From: Rhododendron vialii
Lineage: Eukaryota > Streptophyta > Magnoliopsida > Ericales > Ericaceae
Reading direction: 5' to 3'
Assembly: GCF_030253575.1 (NCBI RefSeq)
Contig: NC_080569.1
Span: 22,318,001-22,382,000 of the forward strand
Length of the DNA: 64,000 nucleotides
This document shows, in pieces, positions 8,068 to 62,646 of the stretch. Below the pieces are notes generated by a model. That model saw only the letters and a program-made list of their open reading frames with translations, was not told the DNA's origin and did not search any database. How positions within the stretch are numbered: the stretch's first letter is position 1; every line of letters starts with the position of its first letter. Made by a program: the position numbers and the translations under genes.

Positions 8068-9844
8068 TGTAGAGACCCGTAATTTATTTAATTACTGAAA
8101 ATGATTAATTAATGTCTAAATGTGAAAGGTGGTTTATTAGGTGATTGTTTGATTTGGGGACTTAAGTGAATGAATTGAAGTTTGAAGGAGTTTTGATGTA
8201 ATAAAAAAGATATATGAGTATATAAGGTGTGTGTTCGCGTTGTAGGAGATATTTTATCTCCCATTCACTCTCTCTCATCCATCCCCCTCCCTCTCTCATC
8301 CGGCCATCTCTCTCTCTCCTCTCCTCTCACTCAAAACTCCACCTCAATCTCACAAAATCTTCAAGAATTAACCTCCATCAAGTCTTCCATTCGTGTTCTT
8401 GAGTTCAGAGATCTGTGGGTCAAGCTTGAAACGAAGTTTCGGAGTTCGAAAGGTTAGGGCTCGTTCAAAAACGTTTGAATCTCGGCCATTGTTGCGAGGT
8501 AGAGACTTCTTTACCTCTTCTATGTATTTATGTGTTGATTTGGTGTAGATTCGTGCCTTGGGTTGTTGGATTTTGGTTATTGAGCATGCCTTGAAAATCT
8601 GTTGAAATCGCTACCCGAAGCCCCGTGGTATCGATACGAATTATGTGGCATATCGATACAGTAAGCTTATCTTTTTGGACAGTTAATGTTATATCGATAC
8701 GGATTATGCGCATATCAATACCAGGAGCTTAACTCCAGTTTTGCTCCTGCTGCTCTTCTGCGATTGTTTTGACCCCCAATCACTTCTAAATCCTTTTGGA
8801 CACCTCCTAACCTATCTTAAGCTTGTCTAATTGACTTCCTTTGACTTCTCGATGTGATCCTTGTTCCGTTGGTCTTCCTGTTAATAAGAACCGAATGAAG
8901 AATTTATTTAGTTAAAACATCGTTAAAGTGTATTTCGTACATTGTTGGCATTTGTGATCGTTCTTGGTGCATTTATGATGACGTTAGTATATCGTAAGAT
9001 GTTTTATCTATGAATGTGTTCATGGGGAAGTCCTAGATTGCATATTGTATTGGAATATAGTCGATTGGGGTCGGAAGTAGATTTAGGGAAACCCGTAACG
9101 CAAGGAGTGGTAATACGGAGACTTAGGGGGGTTTCGTAATGCGAGGGGTGGTAATACGGTAACCCGAGTTGCTAGGAATCACCGTGACGCAAGGGATGGT
9201 AACATGATAATCCTTGTGGAGTGATACGATAATGCAAGGAGTGGAAATACCGATGGTGGGAGTTTGGGTTAGCGAGTTGAGTTGGGATTGTCGGAGTCAT
9301 GTAATTGTGTCATGTGACTTACGCACTTAATCTAGATAGAGGTTCATTGACGAATTGATTGAATACTATCTGTCGAACTGCATCTCCTTATCCTCTTTCG
9401 TTTGCACTTATCAACATATTTGCATATAGAGTTAGTGAAGATTTTCCTACTAAGCTAATGTAGCTCAACAAAATTCTTCTTTTCAGGTTCTAATACTGGG
9501 CAATAGACTGCATGCAATGGTGTGCTTGGACATGAAGATTTTTGGAAGCTAATTTCATTTAGTTACTTATTCATCTTTATAATAGACTTACTTTTGGCCA
9601 AAGATGGCTTCGTAACTAATTTGCTCGTAAACTATCTATTCACTAAAGTTTGTAATATTCTAAACATGTTGTACTTGTATCTAAGCTAATTTGGGCCGTG
9701 GTGCCAAGATTGTATTTCACTAAACTTGGGGACTTATTTGTAAATGAAACAGGTGGGGAAACACTTTTGGTAATGTGTGTGACTCGTGAGGTTCTTTTAT
9801 TAAAAATATATTATTTATTTATGTTGAAAATCAGGGACGTGACA
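8068..9844 (+). mobile_element. Solo LTR (1.78 kb), family A
   Basis: Starts TGTAGAGACCCG, ends GGGACGTGACA and is flanked by CATCT on both sides (8063-8067, 9845-9849). There is no internal gag-pol. It is homologous along its length to the LTR at 47526-50260. Two repeat systems lie inside. One is two pairs of near-palindromes (GTATCGATAC 8628, ATATCGATAC 8650, ATATCGATAC 8691, ATATCAATAC 8712). The other is four copies of a roughly 46-bp unit built around GTAACGCAAGGAGTGG between 9089 and 9255. A CT-rich tract near 8260-8330 may be part of a promoter or leader. The Ty3/gypsy assignment is inference from the ends. Confidence 0.88.
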
Positions 9845-20024: not shown

Positions 20025-22700
20025 CTCCCACGAAGGTTAGTCCGTTTCGGCCCATTAGTCTTTGTACCACAATTTACAAGGTCATTGCCAAAGTCTTGGC
20101 TAATCGTCTTCATTAGTTTCTGCCCTCTATTATTTCGGAAAACCAAAGTGCTTTTGTAGGGGGTCGCCAGATAACAGATAATGTACTTATTGCGCATGAA
20201 CTAACACACTACATTCGGCATAAACGGTCTAGCACAAAAGGGGTGGCTGCATTTAAACTTGATATGACCAAGGCATACGATCGAGTGGATTGGCATTATC
20301 TTGAGCAGGTAATGAGGCAGCTAGGTTTCCACACCTTATGGATTGGATGGGTCATGGAATGCGTAAAAACGGTATCCTTCTCTATAACCGTGAATGGGGA
20401 AGCTGGGGAGTCTTTTCACCCTAGTAGAGGTATTCGCCAAGGCTGCCCTTTATCACCTTATTTATTTCTATTGTGTGGTGAGGGATTTACAGCGCTTTGC
20501 ATTGATCATGTAAGTAAAAAGCTTCTCTATGGCTTTCGTATTAATCGTCATTGCCCGGTTGTTTCCCATTTATTATTTGCGGATGATTCTGTTGTGTATT
20601 ATCAAGCAATGGAGCGAGATTGTGCTGCTCTATATAATATTATGGAGTTGTATGAAGCTGATCTGGTCAGAAAGTTAACAAAGACAAGTCATCGATTTTT
20701 TTCAGTCCAAACATCTCATCTGAAGCTCGTCTTACATTAGCTAATCGTGTCGGGATCTCCATGTAAGCCAAAGAGGCTAAGTACTTAGGCCTCCCTGTCT
20801 TTCTTGGAAATTCCAAGCGTGAGCTTTTCTCATATGTGAAAGACCGTACGATTAAACGGTTAAGATCATGGATAGATTCAAGGCCAAACTCAGCTGGTAG
20901 GGAAGTCTTAATCAAATCAGTTCTCTTGACAATTCCAAGCTATGCTATGTCCTGTTTTCGGTTGCCCAAACAGCTAATGAATCAAATCTCTGCCGAGATT
21001 GCAAAATTTTGGTGGGGTTCAAAAGAAGCGGAACGCAAAATTCACTGGATAAAATGGGATAAGCTGAGTCGGTGTAAAGGCAAAGGTGGATTGGGGTTTC
21101 GTGACTTGGACGTTTTTAACAGGGCCTTGATAGCTAAACAAGGGTGGAAGTTGATTTCCGGTGAACCATCTCTCTTCAAACGAATTTTCAAGGGCAAATA
21201 CTTTCCCAACACGACTTTCTTCAATGCAAATGTAAGTAGCCAGGCATCGTGGGCTCTGAGAAGCATTTGTTGGGCTAGAGAGTTACTCAATAAAGGTTGG
21301 AGGTGGCAGGTTTGTTCAGGAAAAGACATTCGAATTTGGGAGGACCATTGGCTACCAAAACCACCAGCTTTCAAGGTCAGCCCGAGTTCGGTAATAAGTA
21401 GCACCATAACTTATGTTTCTGATCTTATTGACAATTCCACAAAGACTTGGAAGATGCAGCTGATCAAAGAAAGTTTCAATGAAGAAGAGACAACTGTTAT
21501 CCTTTCCTTGCCTATTAGTACCACGCAAAGAAGGGATCGCAAAGTATGGCATTACTCCCCAAATGGTGTATTCACTGTAAAATCTGCTTATTGCTTGGAA
21601 AAAGAGAGCTTGATCAATGAGCTGGATAATCACGGAGCTCAAACTAGTTCTGCTAATGTGATGGCACTGATTTGGAAGAAGTTATGGGGCTTGCCTATCC
21701 TCCCAAAGATCAAATTTTTTGCTTGGAAGTGTTTCAATGAAGCTCTAGCAACCAACTCAGCCCTAACCGCTAAGAAGGTACGTTCTGATCCAATTTGCTC
21801 ACTGTGTGGAAATGCGGAGGAATCTATTTGTCATTTGTTGTTCCGATGTGATTTAGCTTCAAAAGTGTGGATTCTTTCACCTTTTCGTCTTAGACCTGAG
21901 GAGCTTGAAAACTGTAGACATATGTCTGACTGGTGGCATTGTATTTGCGATCGTATCCGTTTAGCTCATCTCCCCTTTTCAACATTGGGTCTTGGCCTTT
22001 CATATTGCTGGTGGATCTGGAAAACTCGAAACGATTTGGTGTTTAATGGTACAAGTTGGCCTGCGAGGTAGTTAATGGAAAGGCACAAGTAGATTTTTTT
22101 GAGTTTCTAGAGGCAAATGTCAAGCCTTCCCCTATTCAAGTGGCTTCTTCAAATCCTGAGACTTTAGTTTAGAAAAGACCTGAGGAAGGCATGATAAAAA
22201 TTAATGTTGATGCAGCGGTATCAAAGGCAACGAGCACTATTGGCACAGGAGCAATTGCTCGGAATGCGAACGGCTCCATTTTGGAAATCTTTAATAAGTC
22301 ATATGAAGGTCTCACCTCTCCACGGCTTGCGGAGGCTATGGCAATTAGAAATGGATTGAATTTGGGTGTTGCTCTGAATGTAGGACGTGTTCTTATTGAA
22401 TCGGATGCGGAATCGATTGTCCGAAGCTGTTCCATGTCAAAAATCCACCCTCTGATATTGCAGTTTTGGTACAAGATTGTTTAGTTTTGAAGGATTCATT
22501 TCAGTTGTGTGATTTTAATTTTGTCAAACGTGATTGTAATAGGGCTGCACATGCTTGTGCAAAGAAAGCCCTTTCTTGTAGTTTGTCCGGTTTGTGGACA
22601 ACTACCTTGCCCCTTTGGGGCTCCTCTCTCTCTGATGGTTAGGCGTTTTTCGGCCTTTCAGATTAATAAAATCTTCTCTCTTTTGTTAAAAAAAAAAAAC
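20025..22700 (+). mobile_element. Decayed, 5'-truncated LINE (L1 type) with RT, zinc-finger and RNase H remnants
   Basis: From about 20030 the plus strand encodes plant LINE reverse transcriptase: FRPISLCTTIYKVIAKVLAN, SAFVGGRQITDN, FKLDMTKAYDRVDW, GIRQGCPLSPYLF and LLFADDSVV (the catalytic ADD). Stops, and a frameshift near 20665-20760, split it; the frame resumes at 20836-22071 with the thumb/connection region (WWGSKEAERKIHW) and a zf-RVT-like CSLCGNAEESICHLLFRC. A third piece (22191-22484) has the RNase H start INVDAAVS and the ESDAESIV region. The 3' end is GATTAATAAAATC...TTTTGTT plus poly(A) at about 22689-22700. The upstream gag-like ORF and endonuclease are missing. It is inactive. 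No sure target duplication was found. Confidence 0.9.
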
Positions 22701-24992: not shown

Positions 24993-26643
24993 TGCTTAGC
25001 ACCACAACCTTGCCTTCAAATATAAGGTTAGAAAAAACCCAAGCGTAGGGTTAGATCGTCGGTAGCATAATAAACCGGCAAGACCGGGATCGTACCATAG
25101 GAAATCAGAGATAGCTTAATTGAATTGTAGGTTTTAGCTTAATCAGATTATAGGTTTTATATGGTGGGTTTCGGCGTTTAAGACGGCCAACTTGGTTTTG
25201 CTTTAAACAGTTGAAATGCTAAGTAAAAAGACTAGAAAAGATGTTTAGACTTAAGTAAAACAGGCGGCAAGGTCTAGGGGATTAAACCTCCCGATGACTT
25301 AGCCTATTTAACCATTTTTCATAACAACTTAAGTTCAAGACATAGACAATCTTGAAACCAAAGCACTCAACGTTAAAAGCCGAGCATAATCATGGTTTTA
25401 GCTCTGAAAGGACTTAATCTTTTTTGGAAGAAATTTAAATCAAACGCCGGGAGCGTTAAAAACCCCAAGCCCCATGTGCAAGCCGAAGGTTAAAACTCCG
25501 GGCAACACACGGTCAAAGAAAGTATTAGCCCTTTTGGTTTGGCCGAAAATTAGAGATTAAACCTTCTCCTTACTAAGGCCATGATCAAGTTATAAAAAAA
25601 ACCATTAAAACAACAAAGCCATGGGAGAGAGATCACCCCATGACCAAGCCTATGAACTACTCATACATATTGAAAAGACTAGAAATTATGCTAAGAGTTG
25701 AATCATGATTAACCGATAGAAACAAAAATAAACTTGATATTAAGGAGAATCTAGTCCGTAACTACAACATTAATAAACAAGAAAACAATAAACAAACTAA
25801 ACTTACTTGAGTTCTTGATGGAAATTACAAGAGAGAAAGCTTGCTAGCTATGAAGTTCCTAGAAAGATGAAAGACTTAAAGCATAGGCCTAAATCTAACT
25901 ATTGGCCATCCTTTCCATAAAAGGCATACATGCCTATTTATAGGGCTTTAAAGTTAAGTTACAAAGGACCAAAAAGTCCCCCAAAATATCCCAAAAACAT
26001 TCCTTAAGTGAAAACTTTCCATAAATGAAAGGTTGAAATAGATAACAAAAATCTGCAGATTTTTCCATGCAGTACCAATACTAGAAATGCCTTAGTACCG
26101 GTACAAGGCTTCAACGGGCTGGAAAAACTGATCTCTAGACACCCAGTACCAGTACTGGGAGTTGGCCAGTAGCGGTACCCGCTTGACAAATTTTTGGGCA
26201 AACTTCGCAGGCTCGCTCCGGATACTCCTGAACTCGGATTTGGGTGTTTAGAAAGCTTGTCGAGTCTACTTTCTAACCCAAGTGGTCTGGATCAAAAGTA
26301 ATTTTTACATCGAAAGATATGACAATTCTTCTATCAGTTGGTCGGAAGATGAGTGGCTTTGGTAAGATCCTCACTTCTCCTTCAATTCCCTTGACCCTTG
26401 GGCGACCCGAGCAACCTCCAAACCATCTCTTCGAGCACCACAATGGGGTGGCACGTGGCCTTGAGTACTTGGTTGCACCCGGAGTATTCCTTAGCGTTCA
26501 AACTTGCCTTATTTATACAAATTACCTGAAATACACAAAAACCTATCTTACGTGCAATATTGCATAAAAACGATGACATATGTATAAACACAACATACTA
26601 GAGGACTTAAGCACCAAAAATATGTATTATTGGGTGCTTATCA
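24993..26643 (-). mobile_element. Solo LTR (1.65 kb), family B, nested in the Copia RT
   Basis: On the minus strand it starts TGATAAGCACCC and ends GGTGCTAAGCA. Target copies are GCATG (24988-24992) and ACATG (26644-26648), one mismatch. The Copia reading frame resumes exactly across it (LYVDDM, then LIIGS). Its 3' part holds the phrase found in the LTR at 52307-53772 (TACGATCCCGG, ATTATGCTACCGACGA, CTACGCTTGGG). It contains two pairs of near-palindromes: GTACCAATAC 26072 with GTACCGGTAC 26095, and GTACCAGTAC 26146 with GTAGCGGTAC 26169. No coding frame. Confidence 0.88.
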
Positions 26644-29194
26644 ACATGTCATCAACGTAGAGACACAAAATGACTTACCCTTTGTCTATGTCTTTGACAT
26701 AAAGACATTTGTCACATTCGTTGATCTTGAAACCACTCGACAACATAGTATTGTCAAATTTCTCACGCCATTGTTTCGGTGCTTGCTTTAGACCATACAA
26801 TGATCTAACAAGCCTAAAAACCTTCCCTTTTTGACCTGGCGCAGAAAAACCCTCAGGTTGTTTCATGTAGATCTCTTCATCTAAATCGTCATTTAGGAAA
26901 GCTGTTTTTACATTTATTTGATGAATCTCAAGGTTTCGCAAGGCCGCGACTGCTATTATCATTAGAATGGAAGTAATCCTCGAGACTGGTAAGTAAGTAT
27001 CAAAGTAATCTAGGCCTTCTTTTTGTCTATATCATTTGATAAAAAGCCTAGCTTTATACTTATCTATTGACCCATCTGCTTTCATCTTCCTCTTAAAGAT
27101 CCATTTGTAGCTGAAAGGCTTACTGTCTGGTGGCAAATCCACTAGCTCCCATGTATGGTTCTGCAATATAGAGTCAATTTCACTCTTGATGGCCTCTCTC
27201 CACAAAGGACCTTCAGGACAATTTACACCTTCCTGGTACATTCGAGGCTCATGTTCCACCAAATAAGTCAAAAAAATCTGGACCAAAAGATGTTGATGTT
27301 CTAGCTCACTTGCTACGTCTTGGTTCGACTTCAACTTGCTCTTCTTGGTCTCATTTGCTTTCATTAGCCGGATACAAAGTCTGTTTAGCAGAACTTGACT
27401 CTGCAACGGATCTATAAGGGAATATGTGTTCAAAAAACACTGCATTCCTAGACTCCATGAGAGTATTCTTGTGAATATCTTGTATATTTGACTCATACAT
27501 ACGAAATCAATAGGCACTACTATCATCTGCCTAACCGAAGAACACACAATCAACGGTTTTAGGGCCTATCTTCTCCTTCTTAGGAGGAGGTATAGCCACC
27601 TTCGCTAGATAACCCCATGTTCGTAAAAATGTATAGGTAGGCTTCCTACCCTTAAACAATTCATACAAGGTTTTCCAACGTCTTTGCGAGTTATTTTATT
27701 GAGGATGTAATTGGCGGTGAGAATAGCATCTCCCCACATGTTCTCAAGCAACTCAAAACTGATCAATAGAGCATTTATCATATCCTTCGATGTACGATTC
27801 TTGCGCTCAACTATCCCCGTTAGTCTGAGGCGAATAAGGTGTTGTGGTTTCATAGATAATCCCGTGTTGGGCACAAAATCCTCCAAACGGTAACTGAAAT
27901 TCACCACCACAAACACTTCTGACCACCTTAATCTTTCTGCTCAGTTGATTCTCAACTTGAGTCTTGTAATGAACAAATTTGTCCAAGTCTTCATCCTTAC
28001 TTTTCAGCAAATATACATAGCAAAACCGAGTGCTATCATCGATAAAAGTAATGAAATACTTGTTACCGGCCCGAATTTGGACATATTTCAAATCACACAC
28101 ATCAGTGTGGATTAAACCCAAAGACTCTGTGCTTCTTTCCACTACTTTGAAAGATGCTTTTGGCATTTTAGCCTCAACAAAAGTCTCACACTTGTGTTTT
28201 CTATCAAATAAAAAAGCTGGAATGTGGTCCAAGTTAATTAATCTACGCATAGAATCGTAATTAACATGACCTAGTCTACCATGCCACAAAACACATAAGC
28301 AACTAGGGATTTCATTTTGTTCTCATAGGAAATTTTAGTCATTATATTCATTTTGAATAGACCATCGGTCATATAGCCTTTCACTACATACATTCCAGCT
28401 TTAGTCAAAGTGACCCTATTTGCCTCGAAAACCAGACGAAAGCCATGCTTGCTCAACAGAGAACCAGATACCAAATTCTTGCGAATATCTAGCACGAACA
28501 ACACATTATTCAGAGTCAATTCTTTTCCCGAAGTCATCTTCAGGACCACTTTCCCCTGCCCCGCAACATCCGAGGTAACTTAATTCCCCATAAACAGCTT
28601 CTCACCGTTAGTAATCAACTCGAAGGTAGTGAACAATTGTCTGTCACAACAGATATGACGTGTAGCCCCAGTGTCTACCCACCATTCCTGCGGGTTCGAA
28701 CCAACCATACTCACTCCAAATACCATAGCTGTGAGGTTAATATCGGACACTCTTGCCTCCACTTGAGCCAAGTGCGCCTGAGAGCGAGAGTTAAGCGGCT
28801 TCGTACACTCCGAAGCTGTGCCCGAACTTGTCGCAGTTAAAGCATTTACGCTGAAACTTCTCTCTTTGTTTCTTGGCGATGCCACCTCTCGATCCCAGAT
28901 TGACACCCTTATCCTTCTATTTACCAAATTGTTTGTCAGACCGCCTGTCAGAACATCTGCCATTCTGGTTTTTCTTTACACTGGAAGACTAACCATGCTC
29001 CACCATATTTGCCTTGGCCATGTAAGAGGCCTTTGCACTCTTATCCATACTCCGATTCTCCTCTTCAATATGAAGCTTGATGAAAAGAGCCTACAAGGGC
29101 GGCATTGTGGATCAAAGCCAAATTGACCTAAAGCTGTATACGTTGGAAGATATCAAAAGAAACCTTAACGGTGTTAGAAGACTCATTATTTAGG

Positions 29195-32684: not shown

Positions 32685-32689
32685 GCGGG

Positions 32690-32732
<43 letters not shown>

Positions 32733-32757
32733 GCGTGTTCGATCCACGCTCACCGCA
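32685..32757 (+). tRNA. trnF-GAA: tRNA-Phe (GAA)
   Basis: A 73-nt intronless cloverleaf. The acceptor GCGGGGA pairs with TCACCGC with one G-A mismatch, which I recall as normal in plant cytosolic tRNA-Phe. The D arm has the box A TAGCTCAGTTGGGAGAGC. The anticodon GAA is at 32718-32720 in the loop ACTGAAGAT, and the T arm has box B GTTCGATCC. Discriminator A; CCA is not encoded. A CAA motif lies just upstream (CAACACTTTACAAACA) and a T run just downstream (CATTTTTCTC), as in active plant pol III genes. It looks functional. Confidence 0.97.
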
Positions 32758-35702: not shown

Positions 35703-38700
35703 TCATCGGAGAGCATTCACGAAAGCCATCAAGGAATCGACATCCCTCTTCTCCGAGGGGTACTTAATGGGCCGAGAAGAGTGTTTGGGGAATAGGAGTA
35801 TTGTAGGGAAGCTTCCTAGCTGCAATTCATTCTGAGCAAATGACTTCTGATCACCATCTGCATTGAACTTTCCCACCTTCACACCAGTCCCCGCCAACTT
35901 CTCTGCCAATTCAACATAGGATCCTTCCATCGCCTGCTCAACAAAAATAAAGGAAAAAATATGTTTGTAAGCATAAGCAAAATAGCCATATTTCAAAATA
36001 ACATAGCCAATCACTTTTTACTGAAACAAATGATCACCTGGCAAAAGGGGCACCAAGGTGCATAAAGCACAACAAGCCAAGGCTCCCTCCGATCCTCAAG
36101 TTTAAGCAAGTTCTCTACCCCAGCCCTGCTAAGATTCACGATACTTTGTGCTTCGAATATATCGGGAATCATTGTGGTTCCATTTCCATGGGCAGCCCCA
36201 TTTCCAATCCCATTGACATGTCCTGCATTTCCCTCCTTGATATTCCCTTTATGGAGGCCGCATTCCTTAGCCTTGGCATCCTCCCACCACCACCTTCCCT
36301 CTCTCTCATGCTGCCCAGGTAGTACCGGCCTAGTGCAAGGCTCGCACCCAATCGATATATAACCTTGTGAGTGCAATGAATTAACAGGTACATTCATCGC
36401 TCTAAGGAAGTTCCAAATGTCATGGCCCTCTACATTTGCCACAGGGTTCCACTTCACCAAGCTACCGACCCCACCATCCATTCCTTCAAAAACGGGGTCC
36501 ACTTGGACTACCGGGATTTCAGCTCTAGTGCCAGGGGATTGGTCTTTCCTTTGTCCGGTGATCCAGGCGCGTAATCCCTTTAGAGCCCTCCTAAGGGGTC
36601 TAACTTTCCTAACCCGGCAGCACTCCTGGTGCCCATCCTCATAGAAAGAGAACAACCCCTTGCTCCTAACTAAAGCCTGGACTTCAACAGCATCCGGAAA
36701 CATGTACTCAATGTGGATGCCATACTGCTTCTCAACTGTGTCAAAGAATTTGTAAGTCTCTGGGTTTAGTCTCCCCGTGTCTAGGCTGAATACCCTAAAC
36801 GGTCGACCAGTTAAGCGTGCGTACTCGATCAAAGCGACATCTTCAGCACCACTGCAAAAGAATCGATTTTTGATAAGAAACTCAATGGTCAATTCTGAAT
36901 CAAACTTTTTATGCATCCGCATGATTTCAGTCAGATAATTGGACAAAGAAACAGAAAAGATCACAGCTTTAATCGAAAAACCGTTCCTAATTAAGAAATG
37001 TGGCATGCTGAAATCCCTTTAGCTTCTCCAATTCATTATCTTCTTATCTTTTTGTTTATCTTTTCTTTCCGATTCATAAATTCATGATCCAAACAAACCT
37101 AAATGTTTGTAGGAAAATGATGTGTTGTTACATATCAGGTTCTTCGTCTCGTCCATAAAACTTTTTCCTGCTTCTCTTATATTGTCTTTTACGTACATCT
37201 TACTTATAAAATCACATAACATATTTTGATCTGAACAAATCACATATCTATTCACCTAAAAAACTAACTACTCCCAACATTTAAGTTTTGAAGTAAATTC
37301 ATTTAAGAATCACATTATACCATGCCTAAGGTCATCACTGCAAACGAAAAATATCTTTCAAATGCAACGATATTCTTAAAATTTGAAAGAACTAATCATA
37401 TTGTTCATAGCAAAGAATATTCAGAAGCGACTTGCTTCATTTTTAACCCCACCAAGAAGTGGATCCGGGGTGCTGTAGTGCACCCGTGTAGGACAGCACA
37501 CGACATCTTATCAATCAATGGTCCACATTAAAAATCAATTATGTCCTAAATGATTCTTACCGGTCATAATTAAAAATCCTATCTCAACCATTCATTATCA
37601 AGATCGTTGGTCTGTGTGCGGACTACAGAGTGCCTTGCAAGACCTTGCACTACAGAATTTCCCAATCCCAATAAGTACAAATAATCATTCACTGATTAGT
37701 TAGAGCTAACTAATTGAACTAAAAAAAAAAGGAAATGCACCTCTGATCTAACCAAATTTTAAAAATTTATTACTCCCAAGAGAGAGAGAGAGACAGCTGA
37801 GCTGATATTATTATATCCAACATAACTAAAAGAACATTTTTGGAACGGACCCACTTGTATGTGAGAGGGGTGTGATTGAGGTGTGCCACACCGATGCCTC
37901 TTGCATTTTTGTTTTGGGAGAACCCCTATACTCTAATAGCATTCCAATCACTGTAATCTCTACATTTGACAAGTAATTAGGGTAGTGATAATGTACCTGA
38001 AAGCAATTGCAATGTCATTCCCAAATTTCTCAAGGGCTTTATCCATAATTTCAAGAGGCGAAGCATTTTCAAGCTCCTTAGCCAGTTGCTCAAAGTCCTC
38101 GGAACCCTCTACTTTCTCGGACACCTCTGCAAATGCAACCCAAGTTAAGGGGCAAACCGGTCAATACACAATCCCTCTAAATAAAGTCCCCACAATAAAC
38201 ATGAGAGAGAGAGAGAGAGAGAGAGAAGAGAATCTCAAGAGAATATGCGTACCAGGAGCGGCGATGGTTTTTGCAGCGAGAGGAACAACCGAGTCGGAGC
38301 GTTTGGGTTCCGCGTTCAGTGCCTTCACCGCAGTCCGTCTCCGCGAATAACTCACGGCCGCCGATTGACAATGAGACCAGTCCGACGGCTGATAAGAAAC
38401 GAACGTTGAACCTGCGAAAATGAAGCAACTTAATACAGAGTGAAGATCTAATTGGAGCCCAAAAACATCTGAGAAATCCCATTCGAAAAGGCTGATTAAA
38501 TATAAATATTTGAACCGGTTGGCCTAGTGGTGGACTTAGGCGTTTGCTCCGTTTTAAAGTCTCAGGTTCAGAACCTCTTAGGTCCTATTAACTCGATTCC
38601 TATCAACTCAATTGGGGCCAGTACATACAGAACTTTCCTCTCGGTTTAATTGGACCCGCAAGTATGCCTTGGAATTAGGCACCCAGAATTAGTTGTGGCG

Positions 38701-42961: not shown

Positions 42962-43125
42962 TTTTTTTTTTTTGTCCAAAATGTTGAGAGGTTCTATTGA
43001 TAGGAGAAATAGTACATTAAGAAAAGCATAATCCCCACAATACAACACAGCAGGCGAATCAAGCCACAAGAAAGAGACCAGCAAGAAAAGCACCCCACTC
43101 CCACACACAAACCTTCTGGGTGTAG
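42962..43125 (-). mobile_element. Possible LINE 3' tail, reverse orientation
   Basis: A T13 run followed by GTCCAAAATGTTGAGAGGTT and an A/C-rich stretch reads as a retroposon tail on the minus strand. No coding part. Confidence 0.35.
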
Positions 43126-44455
43126 AAACTTTATATTCATCTCAAAATTAATTGGCAATAAGTGGAGAGGTCTCAAATGTTATTAAGTAATCACTCATTC
43201 AACTCTCAAGCAATATGAGACTCTATTTCTTTAACATCCCGCCTCACGTGCAATTGTGTTTGAGGTCTATCACGTGTGGCCACTTTTGGGTCCTATCATC
43301 GTGTAGCATTTTTGCTGATCTCATCGTAGGATGTGGATTGTAAATTTTTAAAATATGAGTAGGAACGGACCTTGCTTTAATACCATGTAGAAATTTTATA
43401 TCCATCTCAAAATCAATTAGCAATAAGCAAAGAGGTCCCAAATGTTATTAAATGATCACTTATTTTACTCTCAATCAATGCAGGACTCTATTTTCTTAAT
43501 ATTCCCTCATGTGCAGCCGCGTTTGAGGTCTATCATGTGTGATCACTTTTGGGTCCTATCTTCATGCAGCATTTTTGCTAGTCTGTCATTGTGGGGTGTG
43601 AATTATAAATTTTTAAAATATAAGGTGGAACGGGTCCCGCTCTGATATTATGTAGAAACCTTATAACCAACTCAAGACTAATTTTTAAAATATGAGGTGG
43701 AACGGGTCCATCTCAAAATTAATTGGCAATAAGTGGAGAGGTCCCAAATATTATTAAGTGATCACTCATTCAACTCTCAAGCAATATGAGACTCTATTTC
43801 TTTAACATTCCTCCTCACGTGCAGCCGTGTTTGAGGTCTATCACGTGTGGCCACTTTTGGATACTATCATCGTGTAGCATTTTTGCTGATCTCATCGTAG
43901 GGTGTGGATTGTAAATTTTTAAAATATGGGTTGGAACGGACCTCGCTTTGATACCATGTAGAAATTTTATATCCATCTTAAAATCAATTGGCAATAAGCG
44001 AAGAGGTTCCAAATGTTATTAAATGATCACTTTTTTACTCTCAATCAGTGCAGGACTCTATTTTCTTAATATTCCCTCATGTGCAGCCGCGTTTGAGGTC
44101 TATCATGTGTGATCACTTTTGGATCCTATCTTCATGTAGCATTTTTGCTAGTCTGTCATTGTGGGGTATGAGTTATAAATTTTTAAAATATAAGGTGGAA
44201 CAGGTCCCGCCCTGATACTATGTAGAAACCTTATAACCAACTCAAGACTAATTTTTAAAATGTGAGGTGGAACGGGTCCCGCTCTGATACCATGTAGAAA
44301 TCTTATAACCTATTCAAGACCAATTGACAATGAGCGAAGAGGTCCCAAATGTTATTAAGTTATCACTCGTTCCACTCCAAAACAAGGATGTATAGAGTTG
44401 TATAGGAAATTACCTTCAATGATTTGAAACTCTATTTCCTTAACACTGGGCACAA
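43126..44455. repeat. Degenerate tandem array, unit about 265 bp
   Basis: A unit starting GTAGAAATTTTATATCCATC and holding AATTGGCAATAAGYGAAGAG, CACGTGNNGCCRYGTTTGAG, CACTTTTGGGTCCTATC and GGTGGAACGGGTC...GATACCATG recurs at about 43126, 43386, 43703, 43956 and 44294, with two short partial units near 43651 and 44221. Two alternating subtypes (43126/43703 and 43386/43956) indicate a doubled higher-order unit of about 575 bp. Confidence 0.85.
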
Positions 44456-46645: not shown

Positions 46646-49355
46646 TATTAAATTTTTTGTTGATAGGCGAGGAAGTATTAAAATCTTAGATTCGTATGAG
46701 AACAAAATAAGATCATAAAGTAAATTAGATGAATATTGTCTTTAGGTTCCCTTGTTAACTTTTAGACATAAGTTATTACCTTTCAGATTGTTATAGAGTA
46801 TAGATGAGAAGAATAAAAGAAGAATTTTTTTTTTCTTCCTTTTTATCCTCTAAACTATGCACATTTTTTTTTACTTAGTTTATAAACTACCAATTTGATG
46901 ATTTCATCCCATCAACTATCATACTGTGCTGATAAAAAAAAAAACTATCATATTGTTACGTACTTAGTCCAATAGATAATGAAAATTAGGAATTTGGACG
47001 GAAAATGCAACGTAAGGCTTGGTTTGAGAGCAGATACTTGATTATGAGAGCCCTAGAGATAAAATTAATTATGACCCTTTAAGATAAAATTAATAATCAT
47101 AAAAATAAGACATTCGCACTGGTTCAAATGGATTGAAAATTGGAGCACTTTAATTTTTTAACCATATTTTTTTAATATATGAACCGTGACAAAAAAATTA
47201 AGTGCATTAATTTTTAATCCGTTTGAACAGGTGCGAAGATCTTATTTTTCTGATCATATTATCCTAAAGAGTCATATAATTTTTATTTCTAGGGCTCTCT
47301 AATTAATATATCAGAGCCTTACGTAGAATTTTATAGAGGCTGGTGACACATACTTATTTTTTCAAAAAATAACTGAACTCCTTATATAAAATTTAGACTA
47401 TTTATATATTTAAAATATGATTAAAAATTAAGCATTCCAATTTTCAATCTATATGAACCGGTGCGAAGATTTTATTTTTTTGATCATTTTATTCTAAAAT
47501 GTCATAATTAATTTTCGTCTCTAGATGTAGAGACTCGTATAATTTTTTAATTCTCGAAATGTTATAGAATTGCCGAAATTGGGAAAAATGTGAAGAAGTG
47601 TGGTGGCTATTTGATTTGGATTTAAAGTGTTGGAATTGATAGTAGAAGGATGTTTGTGTGGTTTAAAATTGTACCAGGTACGTAGGAGATTTATATCTCA
47701 TATCTCTCTCTCACTACACACACTGCACTCCTCTCTCTGTCTCTACCGTCCCTCTTTCTCTCTCTCTCTTTCTCTATCTCTCACACAAAACCCCACTCAA
47801 TCATTCAAAAACCCACAAGATCAACCTCTTTTCCCACCTTACAATCACGTTTTTGAGCTTGGGTTTCGTTGGGTTAAACTTAGGAGGAAGCTTTTTGGTT
47901 GATTTCAAAGTTCTTGGAGCTAGGGCTTGTTTGAATCGCGTGGATCTCAGTCTTTTCTTCGAGGTAGGGATTCCTTCTCCTTCTCTATGTGTATATGTGG
48001 TGTACCATTCGAGCTTGAATCATCACCCGTTGCATCATCAAAATGTGTCAAAACTGCAGAAAATCGTCGCTTGAACAGCGTGGTATTAATACCCCACCCA
48101 TTTGAGGGGTATCATTACCCGATCCAAATCTGGATAGTTTCAGCTTCAGTATCGATACCCTTTTTTGGGATATCGATACCCTAGATGTTACTGGTAACAT
48201 CTTGCTTCGTTTAAAATGTTTATTCTCTTATATTGTTTTGAACCCCAATCTCCTTTAACACTTTTTTGACCCCTCTGAATCTCTTTCAAGCATGGTTAAT
48301 TGAATTTCTTTGATTAATCTAAGTCATCCTTGTTCCGTTGGACTCTCACTATCAAGGAAAGGTTAGAAGGTTATTTGATTAAAACTATATCGAAATGTCT
48401 CTTATGTGCTTGATCGTATGTGTGTGGATAATTGTGGCACATTTGTAATGTTAGTATGATGTCGTGAGATGACTTGGGAATAATGGAATGAGTTTACCTT
48501 GGATATTGAATCGGTTTACACGTATGTGTAAGGAAATGGGGTGTAAGGGTCTTGTAACGCAAGGGGTGGTAATACGGAGACTCGAGTAGGTCTCGTAACG
48601 CAAGGGGTGATAATATGGTGACCCAAGTAGATAGAGTTCACTATAATGCAAAGGATGGTAATACAGTAACTCTGGGTGTGATTGTACTGTAACGCAAGGA
48701 GTGGAAAATACAGTCGAGTGTGACGTGAGATAGATTGTGGTGTAGCGGATGTCGTAACTTGAACTATATGTTTATTGATATTGTTGCGTACAATAGATTG
48801 GAGATGTAATGAATGTCGGCTTGTTGCATCTAAAACACCATATTCCGCTTGATATCTTGGGAATTGCATGACTTCGTAGAATGTATCCTTTGTGCTATCA
48901 TGAAAGAGTTGTGAATTGTTGCGCTATCTTAGATTGAGCTGTGTTCACTATACCACTCCTTTCATTGCACTTGTCTTCATGTTTGCATATAGAATTGGTG
49001 GAAGATTTTTTTACTGGGCTAGTGTAGCTCAACCTTTCATCATTTCCAAATACAAACATCGGGCAATATCTTGCATGCATTGTGTAATGGGATGTGAAAG
49101 AACACTTTTGGAAGTCAACTTGGATAGTTACTTACCCATCTTCGTAATGATTTTCTTTAACAGAGATGTATTCGTAACTTGAATTTCTTAATCACCTTTT
49201 GATGGAAACGTTTGTAAACACTAAACTTATTTGTACTTTCGTTAAATTTCGTTAAGTTTGGGGCCGGAGTGTCAATGATGTAATTTAGTTAAATTTGAAG
49301 TTGGTTTTGTAAGTTGGACTGTGGGGAACTTAGAACACTCTTTTGGGATATTATC

Positions 49356-50185
49356 CAAGGTTTTGAATACCGTTTCGGACATGGTACCGGATTTGTCACT
49401 GAAACGGTACGTACCGGTACTGGTATGTTATCGGGTACCATTTTTAGATTTATCGTTAAAAATAAAAAAATAATATGTACATATAGTTATAACCTTGTTT
49501 TTTTCCGTTACTTTAAGTCGTTAAGTCCTAGTAGACTATTGAAATTTAAAAAAATTCACTTAAAACATTTACTTTTAATAATCACTATAGCTGGACCATG
49601 GCATAAATTGCACTTGTAGTGCATAATTTTTCCCATCTCTTCTCTTTCCGTCAAAGTCAAAACCAACTGAAACCCCCGTAGTATCTCGATCCCAATCTCT
49701 CACCCCCGCCAACTGAAACCCCCTCCCCTCCCCAGGCAAAATACTCCGCCTGGAGCTCGAGAACTTCAAGTCCTACAAGGGCCTCCAAACCATCGGCCCC
49801 TTTTTAACTTCACCGCCATCATCGGCCCCCTTCTTTAACTTCAATCTCCGGTTCCTCGGCGTCCGCACGGGCTAGCTCAGGGGATCCTAGCTGAAGGACT
49901 TGATCTACGCCTTCATCGACAGGGAGAAGGAGCAGCAGGGGAGGCGGGCGTTCGTCCGGCTCGTGTACTAGCTGGGAAGCGGGGCTTGGATCTTCTTCTG
50001 GGTTCTGTTTGCAAAATACCGAACGAAATTTCCGGTAAGCCCATCTCAACCGAGATCGTCCGGATTAGCTGGTACCGACCGGTAAGGCCCGGTATTTAGA
50101 CCGGAACGGTATTGAAGGCTTATGGTACCGGAATCTCACAAATCCGGGATGTACCGGCCTGTACGAAATGAGATTCACAACCTTG
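49356..50185. mobile_element. Pack-type hAT element carrying an SMC1 fragment (830 bp)
   Basis: The left end CAAGGTTTTGAATACCG and the right end GATTCACAACCTTG are inverted. The 8-bp duplication ATATTATC is exact on both sides (49348-49355, 50186-50193), which marks hAT transposition. Subterminal GGTACCG / CGGTACC words are dense at both ends. The middle is suddenly GC-rich and encodes part of SMC1. There is no transposase. Confidence 0.88.
49726..49988 (+). pseudogene. SMC1: Captured N-terminal fragment of cohesin subunit SMC1
   Basis: Frames read SPGKILRLELENFKSYKGLQ, TIGPF, NFTAIIG, LGVRTG, LKDLIYAF and DREKEQQGRRAFVRLVY, the start of the SMC1 ATPase head of plant cohesin. The Walker A motif is lost: where GPNGAGKS should follow TAIIG there is a rearranged stretch, and a one-base loss shifts the frame near 49803. 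Three glutamine codons expected from the family read TAG, consistent with C-to-T change at CAG (CHG) sites. The block is much richer in G+C than the surrounding DNA. It cannot make a working protein. Confidence 0.85.
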
Positions 50186-50922: not shown

Positions 50923-51507
50923 CTTCCTCCGTCCTATTTTAAATGTCCCCAATAGCAAAAAGATAAAGAAACAGAAATCCTATTGGTACCGACGGGTACC
51001 ATAGGGAAAATGTACCGACGGCCGCCGGACGGCCGTCTCCGGCCACCGGACGGCCGATCCGAGCCGTCCAAAAATTTTAAAAAATAAAATCGAGTGGGCT
51101 TACGCGAGAATCAATGGCATCCGAGGTGTGTAGGGTACTTGATCCGAGCACCCATTTTTCGTGTATATTTGTATATACGTGTATATACACGAAAAAGGGG
51201 TGCTCGGATCAAGTACTCTACACACCTCGGATGCCATTGATTCCCGCGTAGGCCCACTCGGTTTTATTTTTTAAAATTTTTGGACGGCTCGGATCGGCCG
51301 TCCGGTGGCCGGAGACGGCCGTCCGGTGGCCGTCGGTACATTTTCCCTATGGTACCGTCGGTACCAATAGCACTACTCCAAAAAACCTCAATAGCACTTT
51401 TAATTTGGTGTAAAAAGATTTTAAAAAAAAAGCTATAAAAGTATTTTTTTTGGGTTTTGAAAATGCACAAATTTCCATAAAAGACATTTAAAATAGGACA
51501 AATGGAG
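50923..51507. mobile_element. Stowaway-type MITE containing a foldback element
   Basis: The ends CTTCCTCCGTCCTATTTTAA and TTAAAATAGGACAAATGGAG are bordered by TA (50921-50922, 51508-51509). The central palindrome at 50981-51369 is a separate insertion. Confidence 0.8.
50981..51369. mobile_element. GC-rich near-perfect palindrome (foldback), 389 bp
   Basis: TATTGGTACCGACGG at the left is exactly reversed at the right. Both arms carry GTACCGACGGCC, GGACGGCC, CTCGG and the phrase GAGGTGTGTAG / CTACACACCTC. The arms meet near 51175 at GTATATACGTGTATATAC. Few mismatches separate the arms. No coding frame. Confidence 0.88.
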
Positions 51508-52306: not shown

Positions 52307-53772
52307 TGATACGCACCTAAAATTGCTTGATCGTGGTGCTTAAGTCCGTTAGTTTGAAGTGTTTTTAGCCTTTAATTGTCGTTTTTATTCAATATTGCTC
52401 CTAAGGTAGTTTGTTAAGTGTTTCAGGCAAAACGCCCTTAAAAGGTGTATTTTGAGTGCAAAGCCAACCCCCAAGTTAATTCAAGAATCATCGCCCGGTG
52501 GAACTGGTGCCAAAGTGACCAAAGAACGAAGGCGAGAAGCATCAGGCAAGCCAACGGTCGTCGAGTGTCAAGACTGGGAGGCTGGCTTGAAGATCCAGAG
52601 ATAAGCTTCCCGTATCGATACGGATTTTTCCCGTATCGATACGCGTTGGTTATCTTGCCAAGCAAAGAGTCCCGTATCAATACGATCATAATCTGTATCA
52701 ATACGGGATTGTTACGGGAGATTGGCCTTTTCAGCTTAACGATGTGGTATCGATACGTTGCTTAATCTGTATCGATACGGAGAGCTTTCGGCCAGATATT
52801 TTGCTACTTTTTGGGTTTTTCATTTATGGAATACTTGCCTTTTATAGTATGTTTTTAGATATTTGAAGAGAGAGAAACCCATTGTGTATAAATAGGGGTC
52901 TCCTCTCTCCCCTTTGCTATCTAGTTCTTTATTAGCTTTAATTTTTCCTCCATTAATGTTCTTTCAAGCTTTTCTAGTGTAATCTCTTAGAACTCAAGTA
53001 AGTAATTCTCGTTTGTTAATTTCTCGTTTATTAAAGTTGTTCCTACGGACTAGATCTTTTATAATATCAAGTTTGTTTTCGTTTTTATCGGTTAAAAGTC
53101 ATGTCTCGTTTTTATGCTTTCTTTTATGCTTTAGCTATGTGTGAGTAGTCGATAGGCCAAGTCTCGGGGTAATCTTTCCCGAGTACTCAGGTGGTTATTT
53201 GGTTCTCAAACCTTCGGGCTTAAAATCATGGTTTTCGGAATCGGATTAACCTAGCCTTTTTGGTCTAAGCGAGGCGTGTTAACTCCTTGGTATGAAGTTT
53301 AGTCAAGCGGTCTTGGCAAGCGACATATTGAGGGCTCGTGGCCCCCTACGTGTTAGATACATTAGCAAAAATAGGTTGATTTAATTCCGATTAATCACAT
53401 CTTCCGATAAATGTAGTCTTTTACAGCTAAATCTTCCGGGCGTGAGCACGCGGTCGTGACTCTCGCCTGAGTTATAATTGAAAACCGGTAACGGCTTAAG
53501 TCAAGGGTTAGACGAACCCTAGACTTGCCTCCTTTAAGTTAAACGAGCATTTTCCAGTCTTTTGCCTTGGTAATTTTCCACCGTTAGAAGTAAAATCAAG
53601 TTGGCCGTCTTAAACGCCACAATCCACCTTACAAAACCTACAATCCAATTAAGCTATATTCGAATTCTCTGTGGGTACGATCCCGGACTTTCGGTTATTA
53701 TGCTACCGACGACCTAACTCTACGCTTGGGGTTTTCAACCTTATATTTGAAGGCGAGGTTTGAGGCGAAGCA
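52307..53772 (+). mobile_element. Solo LTR (1.47 kb), family B
   Basis: Starts TGATACGCACCT and ends GAGGCGAAGCA; CACAA lies on both sides (52302-52306, 53773-53777). It is related to the nested LTR at 24993-26643 (shared TACGATCCCGG, TTATGCTACCGACGA, CTCTACGCTTGGGG). It holds three pairs of near-palindromes: GTATCGATAC at 52612 and 52633, GTATCAATAC at 52674 and 52695, GTATCGATAC at 52747 and 52769. No coding frame. Confidence 0.9.
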
Positions 53773-61720: not shown

Positions 61721-61817
61721 CCAAAACATCACAAAGAAAAAACAAAACCGAAACATTCATTGAATTTTCCCACACTTAACTATTCCAGAAAACCTATGTC
61801 AACTAAGAGCTGTGCTA

Positions 61818-62166
61818 CGTGCACAGACTGCTGTGCACAGCAGTCTTTTTCTCCCGCCCCGGATCGCAGAAAGATGATCGGAGCCGCTCATTTTGTTCAA
61901 AATATGTCGTTTAAGGTCTCTGTAAAAAATGAGCTTCGTTCGATATCGTTAGAGGCGTTAACAAAACACCCAAAATCACTTCAGAATTTAGCCTAAATTC
62001 TGAAGTGATTTTGGGTGTTTTGTTAACGCCTCTAACGATATCGAACGAAGCTCATTTTTTACAGAGACCTTAAACGACATATTTTGAACAAAATGAGCGG
62101 CTCCGATCATCTTTGTGCGACCCGGGGAGGGAGGAAAAGGCTGCTGTGCACAGCAGTCAGTGCACG
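61818..62166. mobile_element. Near-perfect palindromic foldback, about 350 bp
   Basis: The two arms meet at CAGAATTTAGCCTAAATTCTG (61982-62002) and are nearly identical over about 125 bases each side of the centre. The outer 45 bases are less well matched. Arm words are GATCGGAGCCGCTCATTTTG, GTTCAAAATATGTCGTTTAA and CGATATCGTTAGAGGCGTTA. The outer end CTGCTGTGCACAGCAG is itself a palindrome on each side. Same family as 18836-19222 and 31125-31345. Confidence 0.92.
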
Positions 62167-62646
62167 AATCATTTCTGGTCAACTAATTACCAAGCAATAT
62201 TATCTGTAACTTTGACTAGATCGGTGTAAAATATGACTTTTTCTGAACAATTTGTTGTTTTTCTCTCCCATTCGGTCAAGGATCGGTTCTCCCTTGATAT
62301 GATGCAAATTCAATGGAAACAGTACTGGAGCTCATTTTCTGAATTTTTTTTTTATTGTTTTTCAGTTTTTCTAGCCTTATGTTACTTATGCGTTAATTTT
62401 GATTCCATTGTTGAGTCGTTCAAACCTTGTTCGGTTTGAATTTTGAGAGAGATTTTTAAAAATAATATTATTACTAATGCGTTAATTTTGAGCCACATTC
62501 TTTCAAGTGGTTGTTGGCCACTCTAGTATAGTATAATCTGCTTGGCATGAAGTGGAGTGGTGTAAACTGGTGTGGTTTAAATACCATGTGCCCAGATGGA
62601 ACATGATTCTTTGGAGGATTTTCAGATTGTGTCTGTGTGCTATGTG
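62167..62646. other. Noncoding stretch
   Basis: No recognised gene. A phrase ACTAATGCGTTAATTTTGA near 62470 recurs in modified form near 62980 (GTGAGTTAATTTTGATTCTA, TTGTTGAGTCGTTCAA also at 62410), so a local duplication is likely. Confidence 0.4.

Follow-up and report, generated by a model that had tools for sequence, protein, structure and literature searches.

How plant retrotransposons recruit the transcription machinery of their host and avoid mutual silencing has, to our knowledge, been worked out best for a small number of stress-induced copia elements. The locus described here raises the question of what a regular arrangement of short palindromes does in LTRs, and why the same arrangement should occur in LTRs of different families. 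It lies in a 64-kb stretch of plant DNA, hereafter the window (C13:22318001-22382000 of a 532.6-Mb genome of 13 contigs), for which a preliminary description had reported paired near-palindromes of the form GTA-NNNN-TAC.

Motif pairs in the window and in the genome

All 18 near-palindromes that had been reported from four places in the window were recovered at the spacings given for them, with two starts corrected (48082 to 48083 and 48108 to 48109; Table 1). Fourteen of them match GTANNNNTAC exactly; those at 8650, 8691, 8712 and 48170 start with ATA and are not exact. Pairing and spacing had been suggested for a test against shuffled sequence, and they proved to be far above chance. The window contains 21 copies of GTANNNNTAC, more than any of 100 dinucleotide shuffles (9.33 +/- 3.01). 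It also has 6 exact pairs at a distance of 20-26 bp; in 200 shuffles such pairs averaged 0.005 and never exceeded 1.

The genome-wide counts point the same way. Pairs of the form GTATCGATAC-N9..16-GTATCGATAC number 2089, whereas the control, which is the reversed-letter pattern and likewise a palindrome pair of equal composition, occurs once. When the spacer was allowed to range over 0-30, 2206 pairs were counted (control 1), so that 94.7% of them fall in 8 of 31 spacer lengths. Exact site pairs 27-57 bp apart number 1324 (control 1), and pairs with any core and a spacer of 9-14 number 5772 (control 513). A chance origin of the motif pairs is rejected by the window shuffles and by the genome control. 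In a viral collection, GTATCGATAC pairs were found at 6 loci with one pair each, and in 257 Gb of bacterial and archaeal contigs they were found in 49 stretches, many from one metagenome assembly, which we regard as background only. One Kiritimatiellae assembly has GTATCGATAC pairs repeated mostly 44 bp apart (L085, L086, L087 and other contigs); these are possibly repeat arrays of its own.

Table 1. Positions of the LTRs, the site arrays and other features of the window
Feature	Position	Strand	Remarks
Solo LTR, family A (probably Tekay/Del-like)	8068..9844	+	TSD CATCT on both sides
Tetrad	8628..8721	+	8628 GTATCGATAC, 8650 ATATCGATAC, 8691 ATATCGATAC, 8712 ATATCAATAC; starts +22/+41/+21
LTR, family B (probably Athila-like)	24993..26643	-	family C homology blocks; flanks GCATG / ACATG, 4/5 bases match
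CCGG-core tetrad, decayed	26072..26178	-	26072, 26095, 26146, 26169 (+ strand positions); starts +23/+51/+23
LTR, relative of family A	47526..49285	+	starts TGTAGAGACTCG; 49285 is the end of the last BLAST match to the A LTR
Tetrad	48083..48179	+	48083 GTATTAATAC, 48109 GTATCATTAC, 48149 GTATCGATAC, 48170 ATATCGATAC; starts +26/+40/+21
Solo LTR, family C (probably Athila-like)	52307..53772	+	TSD CACAA on both sides
Hexad	52612..52778	+	52612, 52633, 52674, 52695, 52747, 52769; starts +21/+41/+21/+52/+22; four sites exactly GTATCGATAC, two GTATCAATAC
GTAC-rich near-palindrome cluster	49401-49440		includes GTACCGGTAC; no paired arrangement
Two long inverted repeats	50980-51370, 61813-62171		arms 94-97% matching, almost loop-free
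Direct-repeat array	43078-44385		start-to-start 265, 306, 265, 336
Non-LTR reverse transcriptase pieces	20243-22071	+	by eye from translations
Copia-type polyprotein pieces	27032-28963	-	by eye from translations
331-codon open frame	36011-37006	-	plant APS reductase-like by eye
tRNA gene	32685-32757		the window's one Rfam hit that reaches the gathering score

The elements that carry the array

The four places had been described as solo LTRs. This holds for the LTRs of families A and C, which have 5-bp TSDs, and the flanks of the family B LTR agree at four of five bases; solo status is not established for the LTR at 48 kb, because its true 3' end was looked for by matches to the A LTR and was not found. 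The family A LTR is 84.5% identical to the L041 LTR over 1791 aligned bases, and the family C LTR is 91.9% identical to the L039 LTR over 1470. The two LTR families of the preliminary description correspond to two groups: the array at 8628 goes with that at 48083, whose LTR is 67.7% identical to 8763-9247 over 499 aligned bases, and family B (26072) goes with family C (52612) as a distant relative, at 72-74% identity in three blocks.

Family A is represented by 40 scored copies of 104 candidates, several of which stand about 7.0 kb apart as LTR pairs. Its internal part encodes gag, RT, RNase H and integrase and has the PBS TGGTATTAGAGC; after the integrase there is a weak chromodomain (PF00385, E 4.4e-4, 20.5 bits, below the curated 25.1). 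Copies of family C stand 11.9 kb apart and also form rows of the type LTR-internal-LTR-internal-LTR. Two three-LTR rows are equally spaced by 11.9 kb (C12:2031168-2055222 and C9:22956571-22980617) and another by 5.46 kb (C6:31992526-32003674). The internal part of family C contains gag-protease-RT, RNase H-integrase, an extra PF20167 ORF and a TGGCGCC PBS. In both families, PF00078 RT, RNase H and integrase stand in Ty3/gypsy order. A TGGCGCC PBS, the order RT-RNase H-integrase and a PF20167-type ORF after pol, which we take to be the marks of Athila, are all present in family C. By such lineage marks, family A is likely Tekay-like and family C likely Athila-like. At L040:4437-5663, a 409-codon open frame with a PF20167 domain follows the integrase and is preceded by a tetrad of its own.

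The TCGA pair matches listed, all on C1, represent 30 places, of which 24 were compared (7 search loci and 17 fetched; 1043049, 4602375, 4605390, 6919486, 12374606 and 12765615 were omitted). Masked BLAST and alignments among these 24 C1 places grouped ten with families B and C (L046, L052, L058, L060, L063, L067, L069, L073, L074, L076), eight with family A (L045, L055, L064, L065, L066, L068, L070, L075) and four in a third group (L054, L061, L062, L071). The remaining two, L057 and L072, were unplaced; L057 has one 76-bp match to Athila-like L073. The third group is LTR-like, with L154 and L155 being 96.6% alike and lying 6.3 kb apart in the same direction. L152, which has direct GGGC pairs, gave no match to the other LTRs compared. 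Three LTR groups or more (Tekay-like, Athila-like and the third) share the array, with two to four pairs per LTR, and its motifs recur in units of about 62 bp. Between the three groups, BLAST with masked exact 10-mers gave no match of at least 60 bp at E 1e-5; derivation of all copies from a single recent common LTR segment, which the preliminary description had raised, is thus rejected.

Spacing and helical phase

The 85 distances between neighbouring sites in 20 representatives fall at 17-26 bp (53), 40-43 bp (19) and 50-55 bp (13), which are 2, 4 and 5 helical turns. Over the range tried, 8-14 bp, the best period is 10.4 bp (score 0.778). Two block nulls, in which spacings are redrawn per family or per group, did not reach this fit in any of their 5000 draws each, and wider draws reached it in 5 of 20000. 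Near copies (L046, L058, L062, L065, L066, L067, L070, L075, L076) were left out of the period test, in which the L045 gap of 63 was split at a two-mismatch site and one L068 spacing was entered as 41, the correct value being 42. Among the 50 listed site pairs 27-57 bp apart, all on C1, 33 are at 40-43 bp, 17 at 48-54 bp and none elsewhere; these pairs overlap with the loci of the period test, and three at 40 bp span an intervening site. Since two units about 21 bp apart make up a pair and such pairs recur about 41 or 52 bp further on, the units would share one face of the helix.

Conservation and decay of the sites

The sites are kept while the sequence around them drifts. All four sites of each LTR at L041/L042 are exactly GTATCGATAC; at L039/L040 the same holds for the six sites in every LTR and for the four in the internal region. 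For family C, 25 distinct haplotypes were obtained from 30 fetched of 40 scored copies (426 candidates). Non-CpG cells were changed in 1 of 1000 cases in the sites against 238 of 3794 in linkers and flanks, CpG cells in 10 of 500 against 13 of 400 outside, and variable columns were 1 of 40 against 43 of 152 (Fisher p = 2e-4), in a sample whose copies are related by descent and were found with a 221-base query including the six sites, which gives a slight bias toward sites. In eight further Athila-like LTRs, with the best pair excluded, mismatches amounted to 11 of 304 in sites against 458 of 1139 in linkers, the C1 loci having been picked for an exact pair and so being biased toward intact sites. 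The seven haplotypes of family A go in the same direction by cells changed (1/196 against 26/714), and their variable columns, 1/28 against 9/102, do not differ significantly (p = 0.69). GTACCGGTAC is the most frequent word at each of the four sites in 21 aligned copies of family B (that of the window and 20 of 40 scored), in which changed non-CpG cells are somewhat fewer in sites (37/672) than in linkers (177/2143); so small a difference is expected of old, dead copies and gives conservation no support. Taken together, the helical period and the conservation of the sites support the earlier view of a phased binding-site cassette kept by selection.

The changes that do occur are mostly of one kind. 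Of the 15 departures from the family 10-mer in the window, 13 are C>T or G>A, as are all 17 among the distinct haplotypes of families C and A and 48 of 57 in family B. Decay by C>T and G>A is typical of methylated, silenced copies, and it accounts for most of the core variety in the window.

The conserved part is essentially the 10-mer alone. In 47 pairs of 18 representatives, complementarity of the flanks is above one quarter just beside the 10-mer (36-53% at position 1, 30-34% at position 2) and amounts to 15-34% at positions 3 to 5; position 2 is G in 85 of 188. GATTA is shared across lineages by 8 of 47 spacers, where 1000 shuffles gave 1.0 on average and 6 at most. With GATTA limited to those spacers and to 5 of 18 representatives, the idea that a conserved spacer element belongs to the unit as a constant component is rejected.

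Core types and core switching

Different families use distinct cores: TCGA, CCGG, GGGC/GCCC and GCGC. Genome-wide, GTACCGGTAC pairs of the CCGG type number 188 (control 0), and GTAGSSCTAC pairs, which comprise GGGC/GCCC and GCGC cores together, number 81 (control 0). Mixed TCGA/CCGG pairs number only 4, both orders together, against 348 expected if cores were drawn freely, although copies within a family are not independent as this expectation assumes. Among 50 GTAGSSCTAC pairs listed, GGGC stands with GCCC in inverted arrangement in 26, the same core is repeated directly on one strand in 8, GCGC stands with GCGC in 14 and with GGGC in 2. Non-palindromic cores thus favour the inverted arrangement among the pairs listed. 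A strict rule of inverted partners is rejected by the 8 direct pairs among 34 listed, of which kind L152 is an example, and GTAACGTTAC as a fourth palindromic core is rejected by its single pair genome-wide (control 0).

The third group provides a case of replaced cores. L154 (C1:5870900-5871900) has the cores GGGC, GCCC, GCCC and GGGC at positions where L054, L061 and L071 have TCGA or its one-step decay; the third site is partly lost in L155 and decayed in L153. Compared to L054, L154 is identical at 24 of 24 arm positions, 4 of 16 core, 30 of 53 linker and 216 of 296 flank positions. The corresponding values are 24/24, 4/16, 19/53 and 191/295 for L061, and 22/24, 4/16, 24/53 and 174/295 for L071. 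Because the search pattern that led to L154 requires the arms, the arm identity is partly due to selection of the locus; the replacement of the cores is not. Among the Tekay-like LTRs, L055, L070 and L075 have one further pair that consists of GTATAGATAC with GTATCTATAC, and five of the seven sites of L045 read TTATCGATAC.

That cores agree within an element and differ between families, as had been described, is borne out by the scarcity of mixed pairs, by L154 and by family B. The co-change of cores that had been read from differences inside the window did not survive the comparison with relatives, which mostly have one 10-mer everywhere. The joint TCAA at 52674/52695 is found in 0 of 24 other haplotypes, two of which have TCAA at one of the sites only, so that it looks like two separate decay events. 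With the excess of C>T and G>A, co-change inside the window is rejected. The genuine co-change of cores is between families and is much larger than the differences within the window. Core types act like separate channels, mostly with one core per element.

Position relative to promoter and open reading frame

In Athila-like and third-group LTRs, the array is upstream of a TATA-like box. TATAAATACC follows the last site by about 60-100 bp in all seven aligned rows of the third group, and TATAAATAGG follows it by about 110 bp in family C. In Tekay-like LTRs the box, TATATAGG or TATATATAGG, stands near +140 and the sites start at about +535 to +575 of the LTR, which places the array about 400 bp downstream of TATA in the five with a box found (A, L045, L055, L064, L070). 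The occurrence of the same array on either side of TATA is compatible with an enhancer. One element of family C has a second, internal tetrad (L040:3728-3821), about 620 bp before its PF20167 ORF (4437).

A proposed function and its alternatives

A short dyad that is repeated in phase and kept next to drifting neighbours is built as one would expect of a cooperative enhancer array bound by a dimeric protein. We consider it probable that these are regulatory arrays, acting as LTR enhancers in two or more Ty3/gypsy lineages and in the third LTR group; one host dimer would bind each palindrome, all on one face of the helix. The unit is the 10-bp dyad GTAN-CG-N'TAC, where N' is the complement of N, with GG/CC or AG/CT in the middle in some families. 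A homodimeric host DNA-binding protein would occupy each unit, neighbouring dimers would touch each other, and the whole would act as an enhancer, presumably an activating one, for the LTR promoter; the second tetrad of family C would serve the extra ORF. Because the PF20167 ORF of family C is not seen in family A, a host binder is likelier than one encoded by the element. More tentatively, the lineages might share GTA-NNNN-TAC as a phased docking code and switch all cores at once, with arms and phasing fixed. The core types may reflect different binders or escape from a silencer.

The palindromes could instead fold in the transcript and be cut to small RNAs, as a hotspot that evolves fast because the host targets it. 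There is a precedent in the small RNAs that map to palindrome clusters of Sirevirus LTRs, as far as the accessible part of PMC10760457 describes them. Here, the sites strengthen predicted folding in all nine cassettes examined (z -2.8 to -6.8 against scrambled sites), and the linkers deepen it in four of nine (z -4.6 in L074, -4.4 in L055, -3.7 in L064 and -2.7 in C), with an unclear effect in the other five (Cint 0.1, L061 -0.2; L071, A and L069 -1.2 to -1.7). The preference of non-palindromic cores for inversion, 26 against 8 among 34 listed, would also suit a stem. However, nothing in a stem would call for loops and linkers with a period of 10.4 bp, complementarity of the flanks fades after 1-2 bases, and the partners in the 8 direct pairs among those 34 are unable to make a full stem together; a sequence that served merely as a silencing target would, moreover, be expected to be lost rather than kept. 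We regard a role as hairpin or small-RNA hotspot as rather unlikely. A binder encoded by the retrotransposons themselves appears unlikely. It would fit the joint difference of all cores of an element, the repeated units of about 62 bp, the extra PF20167 ORF of family C and the presence of VANC6 motifs in an unrelated element too, as given in the accessible part of PMC5735166. However, the Tekay-like ORFs scanned (eight ORFs from five loci in all) included no PF20167-type ORF, so that a single TE-encoded protein would need to act in trans on several lineages. We know of no DNA-binding role of PF20167.

It is very unlikely that the cassette was passively shared, spread by recombination or template switching and now functionless: GATTA is common to some spacers across lineages (8/47), but the sites are kept even where linkers differ by 40%, and the arms stayed the same at 24 of 24 positions while the cores changed en bloc. 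Least likely is a role as insulator or boundary element with a zinc-finger protein as its binder. The centre TATCGATA is presumably the core of the fly DRE/BEAF site, and this identity of the inner 8-mer applies to the TCGA type only; the CCGG, GGGC and GCGC types do not fit, and the literature matches listed, in their accessible text, name no plant factor for TATCGATA.

If host dimers indeed read these phased sites through interchangeable cores, a core switch would be a change of partner or an escape from a silencer, and an arms race between a protein family and its targets could be read from sequence. A direct search for the binder is feasible, as the array is sharply defined, present in about 2000 copies in one genome and common to several LTR groups. 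For testing the cores as separate regulatory channels, the genome supplies natural mutants: copies that have decayed, variants in spacing and four or more types of core.

Comparison with known systems

Tnt1, Tto1 and ONSEN carry tandem stress-response boxes in U3, which are repeated enhancers bound by host factors. Their motifs differ from the one described here, and we know of no phased tetrads common to unrelated lineages among such boxes. LTR regulatory regions are often repeat arrays and sometimes palindromic, according to the accessible part of PMC10760457. In the open literature, as far as its text is accessible, no paper was found on the motif as such, and matches to the 10-mer look like primers or constructs. 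The main text of a survey of LTR binding sites (PMC11656987), in its accessible part, has neither GTATC nor TATCGATA, and the accessible part of a study of sunflower Tekay elements (PMC12844716) discusses VANC and an extra ORF, not the array motif found here.

The targets of VANC proteins in VANDAL elements, as presented in the accessible part of Hosaka et al. 2017 (PMC5735166), resemble the array in being a short motif in tandem repeats of non-coding TE DNA, and in that their units diverge together and the motif varies between related families, as in L154 and family B. Unlike the array, the VANC21 motif YAGTATTAY is described there in one orientation and not termed a palindrome, and the hosts of VANC are DNA transposons that encode their binder. 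Loss of DNA methylation on binding is a further trait of the VANC system. No VANC protein was found among the eight ORFs from five loci scanned with Pfam. The maize Sirevirus small-RNA hotspot (Bousios et al. 2016, via the accessible part of PMC10760457) is likewise a palindrome cluster in a regulatory LTR part with strong predicted folding; here, in contrast, the sites are spaced in phase and essentially nothing beyond the 10-mer is conserved.

The LTR RMs of Sireviruses are palindromic repeated boxes, which the accessible part of Bousios et al. 2010 (PMC2829016) calls Sirevirus-specific and absent from classic elements. From what that part reports, both systems have short palindromic LTR boxes that are kept within an element and differ between elements, and both have extra boxes before an extra ORF, which is ENV-like in Sireviruses and the PF20167 ORF here. 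Counting one LTR and the internal part, there are ten boxes per element in family C (L039/L040) and four in family A, the other elements being represented by their LTRs; the number used to define Sirevirus RMs is at least eight. The RM Tnd-1, ACAATCGATTGT, shares the inner ATCGAT with the present array, again as far as the source is accessible. Compared to the Ty1/copia Sireviruses, however, the two groups tested here are Ty3/gypsy. All Sirevirus RMs except Tnd-1 have a CGG-CCG core in the text available, whereas the main core here is TCGA and only the CCGG type overlaps. The GTA/TAC arms, the helical spacing and the presence of one array in several groups are further differences from what is described there. 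Sirevirus boxes are placed upstream of TATA in the same text, as is the array of family C and the third group, but not that of Tekay-like LTRs. Collectively, these comparisons identify palindromic LTR arrays of Sirevirus-like design in Ty3/gypsy elements, for which Sirevirus RMs and VANC targets are the nearest known kinds.
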